From NCBI GenBank assembly GCA_020027965.1, contig JAHRHE010000027.1, forward strand, positions 1 through 53,257: 53,257 nucleotides of DNA, read 5' to 3'. A program made the translations under genes and the position numbers. Of this stretch, positions 5,049-45,630 are shown piece after piece (within the stretch, counting starts at the first letter, position 1; each line of letters opens with the position of its first letter). This DNA is from Nitrospirota bacterium. Lineage in GTDB: Bacteria > Nitrospirota > Nitrospiria > Nitrospirales > Nitrospiraceae. The notes beneath the pieces are model-generated. The model saw nothing but the letters and a program-made list of their open reading frames with translations, ran no database searches and was not told the DNA's origin.

Positions 5049-8000
5049 CTAGGCAGGGTCATTCTGGCGCTCGCCTGATGAACCGCTCCGCCTGCCATGC
5101 ACGAGAGAGAAGAGAACCGGAAGCACGAGCAAGATGAGGACCGCCGAGGTGAGCATGCCTCCGACTACCACGCGGGCCAGCGGCTGCTGCGCCTGCGCAC
5201 CGATGCCCGTGGCCACCGCCGCCGGCAACAGGCCGATTGCGGCGGCCAACGTGGTCATCAGCACCGGCCTCATCCGCGCGTCCGCCCCTTTCACAATCGC
5301 CGTCTCCACATCAAGGCCCTCCAGCATGAGATCTCTGATCCTGACCATCAGGATGAGTGCTCCCTGAACTGCTACACCGAAGAGCGAGATAAACCCTACC
5401 GCCGCCGAAATGCTGAACTCGGTCCCTGTGAGGAGCAGGGAAAATACACCGCCGATCAAGGCAAATGGAACCGCCATGAGCACGAGTCCCGCATCCCCGA
5501 AGGAGCCTACGGCCAGGTAGACCAGAAAGAGAATGATGACGAGGCTGGCCGGGACGATGGTGGCGAGCCGCTGCTTCTCCTCCTGGAGCTGATCGTACTC
5601 ACCATGCCATTCCAGCCGATAGCGCTCCGGCAGGGAGACCTGTTCCCGGAGACGAGCCTGCGCCTCCCTCACCGTACTCTCCAGGTCCCGGCCACGAACG
5701 CTGAACTTGATCGGAATGTACCGTTCGTTGTTTTCCCGATAAATAATGAACGCGCCCGTCTGTGTCGATATGGTGGTCAACTGCTTGAGCGGAATTCGCG
5801 CGCCGTCCGGCGTACTCACCAGGATGTTCGCGATCGTCTCCATGTCTTTTCGAAACTCCGGCAGAAACCGGACGACCAGATCGAACCAGCGCTCGCCCTC
5901 AAATACTCGGGTGAGAGCCTGCCCCCCGACCGCTGCCTGAACCGCCGCGTTGACGTCGGAAACCAGGAGTCCGTACCTTGCGCAGGCCTCCCGATCGACC
6001 TGGATCAGCAGGTTGGGTTGCCCCAGCAGACGGAAAATCCCCAGGTCCTTGACACCACGGATCTGTTTCATGACCCGTTCAATTTCCACGGCCTTCGCTT
6101 CCAAGACCTTGAGATCCGTGCCATACAGCTTGATCGAGTTCTCCCCCTTCACCCCGGACATCGCTTCTTGCACATTGTCTTGGATGACTTGAGAAAAGTT
6201 GAACGTCAAACCGGGAATTTTCGCCAGATCCTTCTCGATCTCCTCGATCAGCTTGTCTTTCGAGGTAATCTCGCGACGCCATTCCTTTACAGGCTTCAAA
6301 TTGACCAGGAACTCGGCATTGAAGAAGCTGGTCGGATCTGTGCCATCATCCGGCCGACCAAGCTGAGACACCGCGCCGGTCACCTCCTGAAATCCCAGAA
6401 AGATGCCGCGAATCTCCGTCGACAACCGGCTCGCCTGCTCGAACGAGATGTCCACCGGCATCGTCGCCCGAACCCAGAGATTGCCCTCCTCCAAGGCCGG
6501 CATGAACTCACCGCCCAGGAACGGCACCGCCACCAGCGCCAAGAGGAACAGCCCGGCCGCCATAGCCACCACGCGAGTCCTGTGTCCAAGGGCCCACTGC
6601 AGAAACCAGAGATAGCGGCGGCGGATGCCGCGCACGAATGGCGTTTCCTCCTCGCGGATGGGACCCATCAGGAGCAACATGCACAAAGACGGCGCCAGGG
6701 TAAACGCCATGATGAGCGCGCCGATCAGCGCCAGGCCGTATGTGAGCGACATCGGCGCAAAGATTTTTCCCGGTACGCCGGTCATCGTGAACAGAGGGAT
6801 AAACGCCACCAGGATAATGGTGGTGGCGAAGAAAATCGGCCGTCCGACCTCGCGCGCGGCTCGAACGATGTGCATCGGTACCGTCAGACCGTGGCCGGCA
6901 CGCTGCGTGATGTGGTAGAAGATGCTTTCCACCATGATCAGGGTTGAATCGACGATGATGCCGAAATCAATCGCGCCCAGGGAGATCAGATTGGCCGACT
7001 CTCCCAGAAAGACCATCATGCTGAAGGTGAACAGTAGTGCCATCGGCACCGTCAGCGCGACGATCACCGCGGTTCGGACATGGCCGAGAAAGCCGTACAG
7101 AACCAGGAAGACGAGCAGAATCCCGCTGATCAAGATGTTCACCACCGTCTCGATGGTGGTATGGATCAACACGGTGCGATCGTAAAAAGTCTTCACCTGG
7201 ACACCTTTCGGAAGCTTCCAGGTGTTGAGGTCCTCGACCCTTTTCTTGACCCGCTCGAGCACCGGCAGTGCCTGGTATCCGCGCTGGAGTAGGACTACGC
7301 CCTCCACCACATCGTCCCGCTCGTCGATGCCCACCTTACCGAGGCGTACCCGATAGCCCACGTTGACCTTGCCCAGATTCCTGACAAATATCGGCGTGCC
7401 GTTCTTCTCGGCGACCATCACGTTCTCAATGTCATCGAGACTGTTGATCAATCCCAGCCCGCGGACATTGAAGTTCTGCGCACCGACGGTAAGGTAATTA
7501 CCCCCTACGTTGGCGTTGCTGTTGGCCAGGGCCGTCATCACCTGGGGCAAGCTCACGCCATAACTGATCAACGCCCCAGGATCCAGGTCGACGTGATACT
7601 GCTTGGTCGTCCCGCCGAACGCGGTCACGTCAATCACGCCTGGCACGCGTCTGAACTCCCGTTGCAGCCTCCAGTCCTGGAGTGTCTTGAGATCGGTCAG
7701 CGACACGCTGTCCCCGACCAACTCGTATCGGTAGATCTCGGCGATCGCCCACCACGGGGAGAGGGCCGGTTCGATCGCAGCCGGTAAACTCAACAACGCC
7801 AGGCGGTTCAGCACCTCCTGACGATCCACAAAATAGTTGGTGTCGAAGTCGAAATAGAACTTAATGTCGCTCAGTCCGAAAATGGACAAAGAGCGGATAT
7901 CGTTGAGCCCCGGCATGCCGAGAAGAGTGGTTTCGATGGGGATCGTGATTTGCCGTTCGATTTCCTCGGCTGACCACCCCGGATATTGGGTGATCACCTC

Positions 8001-8141
8001 AACCATCGGAGGGGAAGGATCGGGATAGGCGACCACGTCGAGGATGTGAAATGCGTAGAGGCCGCCGAAGAGCAGGATCAGGCCGAAAATGCAGACAAAG
8101 ATACGCTGGACAAGGGCGAACTCAACCAGCCGGGTGATCAT
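5049..8141 (-). CDS. RND efflux pump, heavy-metal (CusA/CzcA) type, first copy
   Basis: 1030 residues with the same architecture as its downstream paralogue: N-terminal TM helix, porter loop, TM2-6 block containing GAIDFGIIVD, a second large periplasmic loop starting GGEFMPALEEGNLW, and a C-terminal TM block with ALIGGVFSLLLTGTEFSISAAVGF. It follows the adaptor gene by 52 bases in the same operon. Differences from the paralogue are spread through the porter region and the C-terminal TM block (for example GVAVQGALILMV against GVAILGGVLLVS), while the first loop is nearly unchanged. The two could form mixed trimers or separate pumps sharing one adaptor and channel. Confidence 0.92.
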   Translation of the reverse strand: MITRLVEFALVQRIFVCIFGLILLFGGLYAFHILDVVAYPDPSPPMVEVITQYPGWSAEEIERQITIPIETTLLGMPGLNDIRSLSIFGLSDIKFYFDFDTNYFVDRQEVLNRLALLSLPAAIEPALSPWWAIAEIYRYELVGDSVSLTDLKTLQDWRLQREFRRVPGVIDVTAFGGTTKQYHVDLDPGALISYGVSLPQVMTALANSNANVGGNYLTVGAQNFNVRGLGLINSLDDIENVMVAEKNGTPIFVRNLGKVNVGYRVRLGKVGIDERDDVVEGVVLLQRGYQALPVLERVKKRVEDLNTWKLPKGVQVKTFYDRTVLIHTTIETVVNILISGILLVFLVLYGFLGHVRTAVIVALTVPMALLFTFSMMVFLGESANLISLGAIDFGIIVDSTLIMVESIFYHITQRAGHGLTVPMHIVRAAREVGRPIFFATTIILVAFIPLFTMTGVPGKIFAPMSLTYGLALIGALIMAFTLAPSLCMLLLMGPIREEETPFVRGIRRRYLWFLQWALGHRTRVVAMAAGLFLLALVAVPFLGGEFMPALEEGNLWVRATMPVDISFEQASRLSTEIRGIFLGFQEVTGAVSQLGRPDDGTDPTSFFNAEFLVNLKPVKEWRREITSKDKLIEEIEKDLAKIPGLTFNFSQVIQDNVQEAMSGVKGENSIKLYGTDLKVLEAKAVEIERVMKQIRGVKDLGIFRLLGQPNLLIQVDREACARYGLLVSDVNAAVQAAVGGQALTRVFEGERWFDLVVRFLPEFRKDMETIANILVSTPDGARIPLKQLTTISTQTGAFIIYRENNERYIPIKFSVRGRDLESTVREAQARLREQVSLPERYRLEWHGEYDQLQEEKQRLATIVPASLVIILFLVYLAVGSFGDAGLVLMAVPFALIGGVFSLLLTGTEFSISAAVGFISLFGVAVQGALILMVRIRDLMLEGLDVETAIVKGADARMRPVLMTTLAAAIGLLPAAVATGIGAQAQQPLARVVVGGMLTSAVLILLVLPVLFSLVHGRRSGSSGERQNDPA

Positions 8142-8193: not shown

Positions 8194-9390
8194 TCATCCT
8201 TTGGCTTCCTGGCCTTTGATCAACACCGCTCCTTTCGTCACGATTCGCTCTCCCGGCCGAAGCCCTTCGAGAATCCGCACCTCATCCGCCGCGGCCGGAG
8301 CAGCCTTGACTTCTCGCTTTATGTATTGGCCCTCCGCTGCCACGACGTAGATGAATTGCTTGCCGTCGATCTCCAGCACCGCCTCCTTGGGCACGGACAA
8401 GAATTGCGTACCCTCGCCCACCTGGATGTTCAATCGGGCGAACATTTCTGGCTTCAACTTATGAGCCTCGTTGGTGACCCACGCCCGGACCTTGATCGTC
8501 CGGGTATTGGGATCCACCACGTCCCCGACCATCGCGATGGCGGCCGGGAATTTCACTCCGGGATAGGCCTCGACCGTCACCGTCGCCACCTGAGCGACTT
8601 TGACGAGGTCCAGATCCCGCTCATACACATCGGCCACGACCTGCAACGTATCCAGATCCGCCACCGTGAAGAGCACCTGGGAGGGATCCCCTCCCACCGA
8701 TTGGCCTGGCGTCACGGTCCGCTCTACTACAGTCCCGGCTAGGGGGCTCTTTAATTCGAACCGCGCCGTGATCTTCTGATCGGCCAGCGGCTTCTCCAGT
8801 TCTTCCGCCGGCACTCTGAGCGAAAGCAAGCGCTCTTTAGCCCGGCGGAACTCCGCCCGGGCTTTGATCGCATCGTTCTCGGCGTGTTTGAGATCCTTCA
8901 TAGCGAGGGCCCTGTTCTCAAAAAGATCCTTCGCCAGCTCATAGGCACGCTGGGCGTACTCCAGTTCGGACGCTTCTTTCACAAATTCGGAATAGGCCGA
9001 ACTGATATCCGGGCTATCAATCACCAGGAGCACACTTCCTTGCTTCACACGGTCGCCGAGATGCGCCCGGACTTCCACGACTCGCCCCTGCAACGGGGAG
9101 GAAATTCTGGAGTACCGGTCTTCTCCATAGGCGACCTTCCCCGCCAGCGTGAGCAACGGCTTCCCCGGACTGTACGCCACGACGGCGGTCTCGATACGAC
9201 TCTGGATCTCGACCGGCACGTTGGACGGCGGAGGGGTTGCGGCGTTGGAGGCCGTGGGCTCTTCTGGACGTCCACAGGCAGATAGGAGAGACAAGGCTGA
9301 GGTTAAGATCAAGGTTAAGGTCAAGGTCAAGCCCAGACCATTTCGGATCTCGTGTTTCACCTTAGCCTCAGCCTGAACCTGAACCTTCAT
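8194..9390 (-). CDS. RND efflux periplasmic adaptor lipoprotein (CusB/CzcB-like)
   Basis: 398-residue membrane-fusion protein that would bridge the RND pump and the outer-membrane channel. A lipobox (SLLSAC, Cys at about residue 39) indicates lipid anchoring. It is followed by a biotinyl-lipoyl-like half (RISSPLQGRVVEVRAHLGDRVKQGSVLLVIDSPD), an alpha-helical hairpin (SEFVKEASELEYAQRAYELAKDLFENRALAMKDLKHAENDAIKARAEF), the second lipoyl half (KSPLAGTVVERTVTPGQSV) and beta-barrel and membrane-proximal domains. Start ATG 9388-9390 overlaps the channel gene stop (ATGA), indicating translational coupling. Oddity: the first 35 or so codons, including the hydrophobic LTLTLTLIL core, are written by a 6-base tandem repeat palindrome. 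Confidence 0.92.
   Translation of the reverse strand: MKVQVQAEAKVKHEIRNGLGLTLTLTLILTSALSLLSACGRPEEPTASNAATPPPSNVPVEIQSRIETAVVAYSPGKPLLTLAGKVAYGEDRYSRISSPLQGRVVEVRAHLGDRVKQGSVLLVIDSPDISSAYSEFVKEASELEYAQRAYELAKDLFENRALAMKDLKHAENDAIKARAEFRRAKERLLSLRVPAEELEKPLADQKITARFELKSPLAGTVVERTVTPGQSVGGDPSQVLFTVADLDTLQVVADVYERDLDLVKVAQVATVTVEAYPGVKFPAAIAMVGDVVDPNTRTIKVRAWVTNEAHKLKPEMFARLNIQVGEGTQFLSVPKEAVLEIDGKQFIYVVAAEGQYIKREVKAAPAAADEVRILEGLRPGERIVTKGAVLIKGQEAKG
9293..9387. repeat. Low-complexity palindrome (unit AAGGTT/AAGGTC/AGGCTG) inside the adaptor gene 5' end
   Basis: Left arm 9293-9331 is built of AAGGTT, AAGGTC and AGGCTGAGG units. Right arm 9361-9387 is its approximate reverse complement (CTTAGCCTCAGCCTGAACC...). 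The loop is about 29 bases. The palindrome lies wholly within the translated start of the adaptor gene, just past the 4-base overlap with the channel gene. The same unit family recurs at 27841-27891 and 50546-50615. Confidence 0.8.
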
Positions 9391-10748
9391 GAAGTGATCT
9401 CCCGTCCCACCGCACTCTCGAGCAGGAAGAAACTGCGCTGGTAATTGAACAGGGCTTCGATATAATTTTGTTGAATGGTCCGCGACGTCCGGGCGGCATC
9501 CAGCAGGTCAAGTATTGTCGCCCCCCCGCGTTCGTACGCCCGTTCGACGATGGTCAAGGTCGAGCGGGCATCATCCAGAACACCGCCCAGATAGGTCTCC
9601 ACCAGGCGGCGGGTCTGTAAGAGATTGACGTACGCCAGGTCCACTTGGTTTTCGACCTGGATCATCGTTTTCTGTAACTCAGCTTCGGCCACCTTCACGC
9701 CCACTTCAGCCTGCACAATGCCGCCCTGGTTCCGGTTGAAGAGCGGAACCGGGAGGCTGAGTCCCATCCCCACCTGTTGCTGATTGTCGGGTCCCTGCGG
9801 ACCCTGGACTGCGTAGCCGGCCATGGCCGTCACATCCGGATACCGATACGCCTTAGCCAGTTTCAGATCGGCCATGCGCTGAGATTGAGACAAACGCCTC
9901 TGTCGAAGGTCCGGCCTAGCCTCCAGGGCAACGCGCCGCAGGACCGCGATGTCCGGATCGACGCGGCGGAACTCGAGATCCGTCGTCAGTTCAAGTTGAG
10001 TCATCGCGGAGAGGCGTAAGAGGACACGGAGATCCGCGCGGGCCACCTCCGCATCCTGGATTGCCTGGATCACCTGTGACTGGAAATCCACGACCTGGAG
10101 ACGGATCCGGATCAGATCAACCTCGGCGATGAACCCCTTCTTGAACCGGATCGTGTTCACTTCCAAGATCCGCGTGAACCGGTCCCGGTTTTCTTGAGCG
10201 AGCGCCAGCCGTCGCTGAGCTAATTGTACGCGAAAGTAGGTGTCCCTGACCGTGAAACTCAACTGCCGGATGGCATCTTCAAAGTTTGCTTCAGCCGATT
10301 GCGTCCCGAAGTCGGCGCTCTCGATGCGATAGCCCCGCTTGCCGGCCATTTCGAACAGTTGCTGAACGTACGGATAGACCTGGCCGCTGCGTGCGGCAGT
10401 CTGGCCCTGCGTGTAGGCGCTCAAGGTGCCGACGGTCAGCACAGGGTTCGGAAAGAGCCGTGCGGTGATCTGCTGGCCCTTGGCATGATCGATCCCGAAC
10501 CGAGTCATGATCAGATCGAGGTTCTGGCGCAGGAACAGCGCCAGGGTCTCCTCCAGGCTGAGGCGCAGGACCGGTGCTGGGGAGGGTGCGGGTTTCATCT
10601 CTTCCTGGCCCGCCGCCGAGGCGGACCCCGATCCCGCGCCAGGAGAGCCGGTGAGGAAGGTTATGGCGGCACAGACCATCAGGAGGCGGCGCGTGACGGA
10701 AGGAGCCGCACCTCGTCGCCATTTGCCTATAGCCAGCCAAGGTTTCAT
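9387..10748 (-). CDS. TolC-family outer-membrane efflux channel
   Basis: 453 residues, first gene of the efflux operon. A signal region follows the start (RRLLMVCAAITFLTGSPGAGSGSASA). The mature part shows the two-fold repeated outer-membrane efflux protein pattern: LSLEETLALFLRQNLDL ... FPNPVLTVGTLSAY in the first half and ALEARPDLRQRRLSQSQRMADLKLAKAYRYPDVTAMAGY in the second, with long coiled-coil helices between. The start at 10748 is chosen because AAGGAG lies 9 bases upstream. An in-frame start at 10793 would add 15 residues without a better site. It would form the trimeric exit duct for the adaptor and RND proteins encoded next. Confidence 0.92.
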   Translation of the reverse strand: MKPWLAIGKWRRGAAPSVTRRLLMVCAAITFLTGSPGAGSGSASAAGQEEMKPAPSPAPVLRLSLEETLALFLRQNLDLIMTRFGIDHAKGQQITARLFPNPVLTVGTLSAYTQGQTAARSGQVYPYVQQLFEMAGKRGYRIESADFGTQSAEANFEDAIRQLSFTVRDTYFRVQLAQRRLALAQENRDRFTRILEVNTIRFKKGFIAEVDLIRIRLQVVDFQSQVIQAIQDAEVARADLRVLLRLSAMTQLELTTDLEFRRVDPDIAVLRRVALEARPDLRQRRLSQSQRMADLKLAKAYRYPDVTAMAGYAVQGPQGPDNQQQVGMGLSLPVPLFNRNQGGIVQAEVGVKVAEAELQKTMIQVENQVDLAYVNLLQTRRLVETYLGGVLDDARSTLTIVERAYERGGATILDLLDAARTSRTIQQNYIEALFNYQRSFFLLESAVGREITS

Positions 10749-10849
10749 ACCAGTATTCTCCTTGATGTGAGGTCCCTGCGGTTCTCGCCGCATTATATAG
10801 GGTTTTCCAGCCGTTTGGAATACATTTAGATGGGCTGTGGCCTCCGGCG

Positions 10850-11941
10850 TTAACGTAGCTTCACCTCGGTCCAGGCCCGGTCATAGAGACGGATTGCCTC
10901 GCCCACGTCCACCATCCACTCCAGCCGATCGAAAGCGGTATCCGGCGGGTACACAGCCGGGTTTTCGCGGGCTTTGGGATCAACCAGCGCCTTGGCTTCC
11001 CGATTGGAAGAGGCAAACAGCAGGCGGTTTGTAGTCCTGGCGGCAATATCACGATCTAACAAGAAGTTCACGAATCGCATGGCCAATTCCCTCTTCTGCG
11101 ACGTCTTGAGGACAACCAGGCAGTCGGACCAGATAGTCGCACCCTCCTTGGGTACGACATACCTGATTGATGGGCGCTCGGCCATCGCGCGGGCCACCGG
11201 GCCTCCCCAGCCGTGGGCCAGGACCACGTCTCCCGAGGCCAACAATTGGTCGTAATGGTCGCTGGTGTAGGTTTTGACTAGCGGCTTCTGTCTGATCAGC
11301 TTGGCCTTGGCCCCCTCGATAACCGCCGGGTCTCGGGTGTTCATCGACTGCCCCATCGAACGCAGGGCCGCCCCAAAGACCTCACGCTGGTCGTTCAACA
11401 TGCTGATCTTCCCCTTGTACTTGGCGTCCCAGAGGACCGACCAACTGTCCGGTGGCGTGGAGATGATCGCCGAGTCATACCCGATCCCGACCGTGCCCCA
11501 CAGATACGGGATTGAGTACCGGTGCTCCGGATCGAACGGCAGGCGCTGGAGCCCTTCTGAGAGGTACCGAGCATTCGGGATTTGGGACAAGTCCAGTTCG
11601 GCCAGAAGGCCCTCCCGCGCCATAATGGACACCATGAAATCCGACGGCACTGCCACATCGTACCCGGAAGCGCCGCCTTGCAGTTTGGCCAGCAATTCCT
11701 CGTTGCTGCTGAAGGTGTCCACCACGACCTTGACGCCGGCCTGTTGCTCGAACTCCGCGAGCAGCTCCGGGCCAACGTAGTCCGACCAGGTAAAGTAATG
11801 CAGCGTCGTCGTGGCGGCCTGGGGGCCATTCTTCGGCCCATCCTCCGGCGTCGGCTGGCAGGCCAGGATCGCCGCACATAGGAGGGCGGCGATCCAAGTA
11901 CGATTTGATGATGTTGTGATTTGGCGAAGTGTCAGAGCCAC
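10850..11941 (-). CDS. potD: Polyamine ABC transporter substrate-binding lipoprotein (PotD/PotF-like)
   Basis: 363 residues. The N-terminal hydrophobic stretch ends in a lipobox (AILAC, Cys about residue 28). The mature protein begins with the PotD hallmark LHYFTWSDYVGPELLAEFEQQAGVKVVVDTFSSNEELLAKLQGGASGYDVAVPSDFMV and later has YLWGTVGIGYDS and VVLAHGWGGPVARAM. It binds the ligand in the periplasm for PotABC. The start is a GTG (11941); no ATG precedes the signal sequence. Codons 3-14 (LTLRQITTSSNR) are read from the left arm of a low-complexity palindrome, so this N-terminus is unusual. Ligand (spermidine, putrescine or another cation) cannot be settled by eye. Confidence 0.9.
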   Translation of the reverse strand: MALTLRQITTSSNRTWIAALLCAAILACQPTPEDGPKNGPQAATTTLHYFTWSDYVGPELLAEFEQQAGVKVVVDTFSSNEELLAKLQGGASGYDVAVPSDFMVSIMAREGLLAELDLSQIPNARYLSEGLQRLPFDPEHRYSIPYLWGTVGIGYDSAIISTPPDSWSVLWDAKYKGKISMLNDQREVFGAALRSMGQSMNTRDPAVIEGAKAKLIRQKPLVKTYTSDHYDQLLASGDVVLAHGWGGPVARAMAERPSIRYVVPKEGATIWSDCLVVLKTSQKRELAMRFVNFLLDRDIAARTTNRLLFASSNREAKALVDPKARENPAVYPPDTAFDRLEWMVDVGEAIRLYDRAWTEVKLR

Positions 11942-11987
11942 GCTTGTTCCCCCCTACCAATCACCAAATCACCAGATCACCAAATCT
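11902..11987. repeat. Low-complexity palindrome (unit GATTTGGT/GATCTGGT) at the potC-potD junction
   Basis: Left arm 11902-11929 (GATTTGATGATGTTGTGATTTGG) lies inside the potD coding start. Right arm 11957-11987 is a run of CCAATCA/CCAAATCA/CCAGATCA units, its near reverse complement. The same unit family recurs at 39603-39686 and 42325-42390. Confidence 0.85.
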
Positions 11988-12763
11988 CACTTTCCATTGA
12001 CGCGCTGCATGACCAGCGACAGGGCGATCAGCGCCATCGAAACCAGCACGAGGATGGCCGAGAGCGCATTAATCTCCGGGGAGACGCCGCTCTTGATCAT
12101 CGAATAGACCTTCAATGGGAGCGTCGTCGAGCCAGGACCGGCCGTGAAAAAGGTCACGATGAAGTCGTCCAGCGACACCGTGAAGGCCATCAGCACCCCG
12201 CCGATGATGGCCGGGCTCAGCAGCGGAAGCGTCACGCGGCGGAACGCCTGCCACGCGGTGGCGCCTAAATCGCGAGCCGCCTCTTCCAGCGCAGGATCGA
12301 GCTTGCGGAGCCTGGCCCGCACGATCACCATCACGACCGGCACGTTGAAGGCCGCGTGCCCGATCGTGACCGTCACCAGGCTCAGCGGCACTTGAATCAT
12401 GACAAAGAAGAGCAACAGCGCCACGCCCATCATCACTTCAGGGATCACAAGCGGCAACAGCAGCGCCCCGTCCACAAGCCGCTGTCCGGGAAAATGAGAC
12501 CGTTCCAGGCCCACCGCCGCACTAACACCCAGAATCGTCGCGATCATCGTGGAGACGACCGCCACGAGCAGGCTATTTTGCACGGCAGCGAACAAGGCCT
12601 CGTCCGACGCCAGCATCTGGTACCACTGGAGTGTAAACCCCTGCCATCTCGCCGACAGCCGCGACGCATTGAAGGAGAACACCACCAGCACCGCAATCGG
12701 CGCATAGAGGAACAGCAGGTTGGCGAGGCTCGCACTCCGCAACCACCTTCTCTGTCCAGTCAT
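11987..12763 (-). CDS. potC: Polyamine ABC transporter permease PotC
   Basis: 258-residue inner-membrane permease with about six TM helices. The cytoplasmic EAA loop that docks on the ATPase is visible (LEEAARDLGATAWQAFRRVTLPLLSPAIIGG, about residues 160-190). TM1 is LLFLYAPIAVLVVFSFNAS. It pairs with PotB to form the membrane channel of the importer. It lies 27 bases after potB and is followed by potD, the standard potABCD order. The C-terminal end abuts the repeat palindrome at 11957-11987. Confidence 0.93.
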   Translation of the reverse strand: MTGQRRWLRSASLANLLFLYAPIAVLVVFSFNASRLSARWQGFTLQWYQMLASDEALFAAVQNSLLVAVVSTMIATILGVSAAVGLERSHFPGQRLVDGALLLPLVIPEVMMGVALLLFFVMIQVPLSLVTVTIGHAAFNVPVVMVIVRARLRKLDPALEEAARDLGATAWQAFRRVTLPLLSPAIIGGVLMAFTVSLDDFIVTFFTAGPGSTTLPLKVYSMIKSGVSPEINALSAILVLVSMALIALSLVMQRVNGK

Positions 12764-14754: not shown

Positions 14755-14765
14755 GAGACGTTCAA

Positions 14766-14842
14766 CGTTAACCGTGAATCGTGAGTTGCCGGAAAGACTC
14801 AATCCCTCTTCCCGTTTAACGATTCACGTTTCACGAGTAACG
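14766..14842. repeat. Low-complexity palindrome (unit CGTGAATC) upstream of potA
   Basis: Left arm 14766-14787 (CGTTAACCGTGAATCGTGAG) and right arm 14814-14842 (units CGATTCA, CGTTTCA, CGAGTAA) are imperfect reverse complements around a 26-base centre. It fills the gap between potA and the next gene upstream, so it would lie in the potA leader or in the intergenic part of a longer transcript. Related units occur at 18430-18523 and 35659-35757. Confidence 0.8.
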
Positions 14843-14846
14843 TCTG

Positions 14847-27826: not shown

Positions 27827-27840
27827 CACACACTCCAGAG

Positions 27841-27891
27841 GTCGAGGCTAAGGCTAAGGTTGAGAAAGTAGTTCGGCTTCGCCTCGACTTC
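27841..27891. repeat. Low-complexity palindrome (unit AGGCTA/AGGTTG)
   Basis: Left arm 27841-27864 (GTCGAGGCTAAGGCTAAGG...) and right arm 27876-27891. GTCGAGGC (27841-27848) and GCCTCGAC (27881-27888) are perfect complements. It fills the era-mgtE gap and touches the era stop codon. Same unit family as 9293-9387 and 50546-50615. Confidence 0.75.
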
Positions 27892-42287: not shown

Positions 42288-42420
42288 GTCCCAGGACTGA
42301 GGACTGAGAGCTGAGGAAAGTGGGATTTGGAGATCTTCGATTTCTTGATTGTCAGAAATCTCCAGATCACCAAATCACCAGATCAGAATTACTCTCGCCT
42401 GGTCCTCAGCACCCAGTACT
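42288..42420. repeat. Nested low-complexity palindromes upstream of metG
   Basis: Outer left arm 42288-42314 is made of AGGACTGAG/GAGCTGAGG units, and outer right arm 42399-42420 (CTGGTCCTCAGCACCCAGT) complements it. Inside lies a second palindrome: left 42324-42362 (GATTTGGAGATCTTCGATTT...), right 42362-42390 (CCAGATCACCAAATCACC...). Two different unit families are therefore nested around the same centre. Confidence 0.8.
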
Positions 42421-45540: not shown

Positions 45541-45630
45541 TTGTGTGATTGACTGATTGCCGATTGAATCATTGCCTAAATCCTGATGCTCCGAGATCCA
45601 ATGACTCAATGATTCAACCACCAAATTCTT
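45541..45630. repeat. Low-complexity palindrome (unit GATTGACT/GATTGAAT) upstream of ftsH
   Basis: Left arm 45541-45575 (TGATTGACTGATTGCCGATT...) and right arm 45599-45630. The core TTGAATCATTG (45564-45574) / CAATGATTCAA (45607-45617) is a perfect 11-bp stem. It ends ten bases before the ftsH ATG. Confidence 0.85.

Follow-up and report, generated by a model that had tools for sequence, protein, structure and literature searches.

Palindromic elements of Rickettsia are reportedly carried in frame inside protein-coding genes (Ogata, 2000; cited in PMC2759123). Cyanobacteria harbour short tandemly repeated heptamers, which resemble the repeats considered here, by description only, in being short tandem units located near genes. 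In Yersinia pestis, the RU-2/YPAL repeat forms part of the signal peptide of YPO1552 (Delihas, 2007; PMC2759123). REP elements share a consensus that is about 14-40 nt long and seldom overlap coding regions (PMC12306157). The S23p ORF of Coxiella is located within the 23S rRNA intervening sequence, which has inverted repeats at its ends and is excised by RNase III, and the same source states that the function of the S23/IVS-type protein family is not known (PMC4990558). Here, we describe a locus that shares features with several of these systems.

The window, that is, the whole stretch of Nitrospirota DNA analysed here (53,257 nt), encodes on its minus strand an RND pump of the CusA/CzcA family (5049-8141; TIGR00914, E-value 2.1e-273, above the cut-off), a periplasmic adaptor of the CusB/CzcB type that is predicted to be a lipoprotein (8194-9390; PF16576, E-value 4.5e-54; TIGR00999 and TIGR01730; orthologues) and the operon partner of the latter, an outer membrane channel of the OEP family (9387-10793; PF02321). 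As pointed out in an earlier, sequence-only reading of this DNA, there is a four-base overlap between the start of the adaptor and the stop of the channel: the ATG at 9390-9388 shares the ATGA at 9387-9390 with the stop codon of the channel ORF, and this -4 offset is kept in most orthologues. The adaptor leader displays the features of a lipoprotein (Sec/SPII) signal, including the start, an h-region, a lipobox and an invariant Cys. The lipobox LSAC (L36-S-A-C39; 9274-9285, minus strand) lies outside the repeat described below, and Cys39 is invariant in the orthologue alignment (A1). The best 10-residue hydropathy is 2.3, compared with a median of 2.62 in repeat-free leaders.

Codons 2-33 of the adaptor ORF are made up of degenerate hexamer units arranged as an inverted repeat, (AGGYTN)n...(ARCCTN)n, and both arms are thus contained within the first 35 codons, in agreement with the initial observation. 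Sequence inspection and arm scoring delimit, on the minus strand, a 28-nt 5' arm (AGGTTCAGGTTCAGGCTGAGGCTAAGGT; 9359-9386), which reads KVQVQAEAKV and is polar and charged, and a 38-nt 3' arm (CTTGACCTTGACCTTAACCTTGATCTTAACCTCAGCCT; 9294-9331), which reads LTLTLTLILTSA; the two are separated by a 27-nt loop (9332-9358), defined from the sequence and the RNA fold. The 3' arm encodes residues L21-A32, most of the hydrophobic core, with the lipobox located just beyond it. The AAGGTT/AAGGTC unit originally proposed captured a genuine hexamer repeat, but the units are degenerate. A repeat search recovered the inverted pair 9294-9312/9356-9374 (84%).

With an AGGYTN arm followed by an ARCCTN arm, the purine arm coming first, the palindrome fits the definition of a dispersed family, which we refer to as AGGYTN. 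In the 3.6-Mb genome of the window, the search pattern AGGYTNAGGYTNAGGYT yielded 96 matches (40 forward and 56 reverse) as opposed to 0 and 1, respectively, for the reversed pattern used as a control; these survey counts represent strict pattern matches only rather than every copy. Given this excess and the arm scores of 24.0 and 22.0, compared with 99th percentiles of 8.5 and 8 for shuffled leaders, the presence of the palindrome inside the adaptor leader exceeds chance. Among relatives from the same taxonomic family, the pattern is abundant in some genera (for example, 93 matches in genome G004, 202 in G008, 111 in G028 and 93 in G036) and scarce or missing in others. The hexamer unit is a lineage-restricted dispersed family. 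A second AGGYTN palindrome of the window, recognized by the pattern match and by comparison with the flanks of PF05635 genes (see below), occupies a tandem gene gap (27838-27891, no strand assigned), and further palindromes at 11896-11992, 14756-14845, 42300-42420 and 45557-45624 are built of degenerate 7-8 bp arrays. Across 62 two-armed elements, the AGGYTN hairpins retain a mismatch every six bases, and the free sixth base agrees between opposite arms less often than when the pairings are shuffled, only about 1-2% of shuffles being as low.

Among 93 adaptor orthologues, seven, namely, those from the window and from genomes G015, G031, G004, G023, G026 and G022, have the two arms, read in one and the same frame, behind the conserved overlap of start and stop. 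Most of the remaining 86, including that of Nitrospira defluvii, have an unrelated hydrophobic core downstream of the same ATGA junction, usually in a short leader. Repeat-free orthologues with the same Leu-Thr signal codon for codon, which the sequence-only reading named as grounds for refutation, were not found. That reading also asked whether relatives lack the repeat and start further in; the leaders of the repeat-free relatives begin at the same ATGA and are shorter. Decayed arms are discernible in four orthologues (L163, L177 from N. moscoviensis, L111 and L152). In a tree of the mature part of the protein, the seven carriers require six changes, at least three of which are forced by well-supported branches, and members of the same genus differ, the repeat being present in G031 and G022 and missing from their respective congeners G021 and G001. 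One old insertion followed by loss and decay, several insertions or a combination of both are possible histories. About ten native residues separate the 3' arm from the lipidated Cys in G031 and about six in the window, so that the arm has replaced the core to differing degrees. Because the repeat-free relatives have a lipoprotein signal that starts from the same ATGA overlap, the repeat did not invent export; rather, it annexed, extended and partly replaced an existing signal. The original proposal that such repeats create export signals is therefore to be narrowed: the repeat does encode the n-region of the adaptor and the larger part of its h-region, but the signal as such is already found in relatives.

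The adaptor is not the only gene family affected. In an M16 peptidase, the leader contains the same palindrome read in another frame, with the 5' arm encoding (RL)n and the 3' arm (NL/SL)n, as in MSRRLRLRLRLRGGVGTWIRLILILAFNLSLNLNLAGAS from G004. Such repeat-written leaders (L072/L301, L191/L307, L208, L312, L313 and L315) were found in G000, G004, G028, G022 and G012, and a partly decayed one in G006; at the same position, an ARCCT array is combined with arrays of other units in G019, G021 and G005, and other relatives have ordinary leaders. The M16 start codon, too, mostly overlaps or abuts the stop of the gene upstream; for G028, the candidate starts are a TTG in the arm and an ATG in the loop. 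As judged from these comparisons, the AGGYTN palindrome appears to have built leaders in two gene families, in two reading frames and in several genera. Elsewhere, palindromes form C-terminal tails and, in a methyltransferase, write a loop in frame whose counterpart in outgroups is shorter. Conserved genes gain both tails and stops from palindromes (KVEA*, EGSG*), with the same gene affected in several genera (L193, L207, L222 and other gene ends), and the surface loop of the methyltransferase contains array-like inserts that differ by genus (L331-L352, L205). In an exported protein of G028 (L204, 1559-1680), the arms flank an ordinary hydrophobic core and the second arm reads PQPQPQP. Additional N-terminal overlaps, in L071, L194, L082 (1551-1573) and L220, were rejected as apparent mis-calls of the start codon upstream of a better ATG. 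The common denominator of the overlaps might be gene ends or loops that are tolerant of changes in sequence and length.

The free sixth position of the hexamer provides a further line of evidence. In the ARCCTN arms of intergenic copies (n=295), this position is occupied by C in 151 cases, T in 88, G in 41 and A in 15. By contrast, T is found at 14 of the 18 free positions in the adaptor 3' arms (p=7e-5) and C at the other four, resulting in Leu (TTA) and Ser, respectively, whereas A or G, which would make a stop, never occurs there (0/18 versus 56/295; p=0.026). In the 5' arm, C is enriched (10/20 versus 41/295; p=3e-4), with Gln (CAG) replacing Glu or Lys. All three p-values are optimistic, given that the seven orthologues are related. 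The bias nevertheless runs in the direction expected of a translated signal peptide. Considering the frame shared by seven orthologues, the unrelated repeat-free leaders, the M16 leaders, the biased free position and the genome-wide family, we estimate a probability of roughly 0.82 that a family palindrome is translated to give the n-region of the adaptor signal and the bulk of its h-region, with the native lipobox following. Under this scenario, an AGGYTN palindrome located just past the channel-adaptor ATGA junction would form the N-terminal end of the translated adaptor. The first arm gives polar or charged residues resembling an n-region and the second arm Leu alternating with small residues resembling an h-region, next to which the native lipobox would stand. 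Such insertions may persist since signal peptides tolerate much sequence change and lie beside gene junctions, and coupled translation at the ATGA could open the hairpin. The repeat-built leader would then work in export.

An unlikely alternative is that the hairpin belongs to an untranslated leader and only controls translation or stability, with the adaptor starting inside or after the arms, at the GTG of codon 11 or at a TTG within the 3' arm. The in-frame GTG and several TTG codons are indeed available, the hairpin at the adaptor start is strong (-36.3 kcal/mol, z=-2.2, better than most shuffles) and repeat-bearing leaders tend toward more stable folds than others. However, the start overlap is kept whether or not an orthologue has the repeat, the frame is open across the arms and the loop in all seven carriers, and the codon choice at the free position suits a translated leader. 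It is still harder to envisage, to the point of being very improbable, that the Leu-Thr core is a low-complexity tract grown by local slippage which merely looks like the family. Although changes in the number of hexamer units would leave the frame unaffected, every full case has both arms in the family polarity and matches the genome-wide family, and the M16 leader is made of the same DNA in a different frame.

Somewhat less remote, albeit also unlikely, is the possibility that the palindromes are RNA-processing, stabilizing or terminating signals of gene junctions and overlap coding sequence incidentally. Most copies are located at junctions: by simple gene calls made for this analysis, which render the counts approximate, 94 elements from five genomes comprise 56 in tandem gaps, 9 in convergent and 9 in divergent gaps, a further 17 that fall within called genes and 3 at edges, and many lie within 20 bp of both neighbouring genes. 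Yet only 9 of the 94 are convergent, a T-run accompanies only 5 of 62 two-armed copies (56/5000 random places) and in-frame copies occur inside genes. A terminator function for the family was dismissed on the grounds of these positions and the scarcity of T-runs, and the palindrome of the window itself has no T-run after the hairpin. Because its members are found mostly in tandem gene gaps without T-runs, the AGGYTN family is not mainly a terminator, although a few copies could terminate, and the argument against a terminator role in the sequence-only reading was sound. Compensatory pairing was likewise discarded as evidence for RNA structure: the two arms of an element do not pair better with each other than with arms of other elements, and at the free position they do slightly worse, and we therefore make no claim of selection on RNA.

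In the genome of the window, each of two AGGYTN palindromes holds, in a loop about 400 bp long, a PF05635 (23S_rRNA_IVP) gene, which encodes a four-helix bundle (L066, 1502-1925; L082, 3477-3927, between rmlA and rmlB). Among relatives, 61 of 75 PF05635 genes (not all independent, a few having been fetched twice or split) are flanked by inverted repeats scoring at least 12 within 120 bp, compared with none of 148 places chosen at random from these loci, and the corresponding figures for a phylum-wide sample are 17/28 and 3/173 controls. Most of the flanking arms consist of degenerate units of 6, 7, 8 or 9 bp repeated in tandem. The rmlA-rmlB junction is instructive: its spacing is 2-10 bp in seven genomes, whereas an AGGYTN element of 450 bp that includes a PF05635 gene is present in G000 and G021, and G015 has a 461-bp element with arms of 8-bp units; G004 carries a PF05635 insertion on the same side of rmlA. 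These elements look like discrete insertions. Five of the six array-type palindromes of the window match the arms of PF05635 elements, with scores of 14 to 24.5 against about 9.5 for shuffles, whereas eight other inverted repeats of the window score at most 11. The arms of the adaptor palindrome match the flanks of L285 (17.5 versus a shuffled maximum of 12.5), those at 11896-11992, 14756-14845 and 42300-42420 match PF05635-flanking arms of relatives, and 45557-45624 has no match among PF05635 flanks. The adaptor palindrome holds no PF05635 gene, its loop being only 27 nt, and is probably a gene-less relative of the PF05635-carrying elements. With slightly less than even confidence, we suggest that PF05635 genes reside in putative mobile elements, which are bounded by inverted arrays of 6-9 bp units and insert at gene junctions, and that the gene-less palindromes, including that of the window, are non-autonomous copies which would repeatedly become signal peptides since their arms read as charged and then Leu-rich residues. 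Alternatively, in the opposite order, palindromes may have captured PF05635 genes.

We found no report of the link between PF05635 genes and arrays, or of the Nitrospira repeats, in the open-access literature, and, within the literature searched, what is new is the family of elements, the fact that it recurs in two gene families and in two frames, and its association with PF05635. The S23/IVS-type genes within inverted arrays between protein genes provide a testable lead on function, and the leaders show concretely, and more than once, how dispersed non-coding DNA has come to form part of exported proteins, for two gene families and two frames. The elements resemble the Coxiella intervening sequence in having a PF05635-type gene between inverted repeats, but they are located between protein genes, their arms are built from degenerate units of 6-9 bp in tandem and the majority of the palindromes are gene-less. 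Like REP elements, with which they were compared by definition only, they are dispersed, palindromic and near gene ends, whereas their overlap with coding sequence counts against REP membership. Two aspects of the locus were already known, namely, palindromes within protein genes, from Rickettsia, and a repeat within a signal peptide, from RU-2. The in-frame palindrome within a coding gene recalls the Rickettsia elements, a likeness by description that implies no claim of membership; here, the array is one of degenerate hexamers and most copies lie at gene junctions. Finally, RU-2/YPAL is a 168-bp unit, whereas here an inverted hexamer array recurs in two gene families, in two frames and in several genera.
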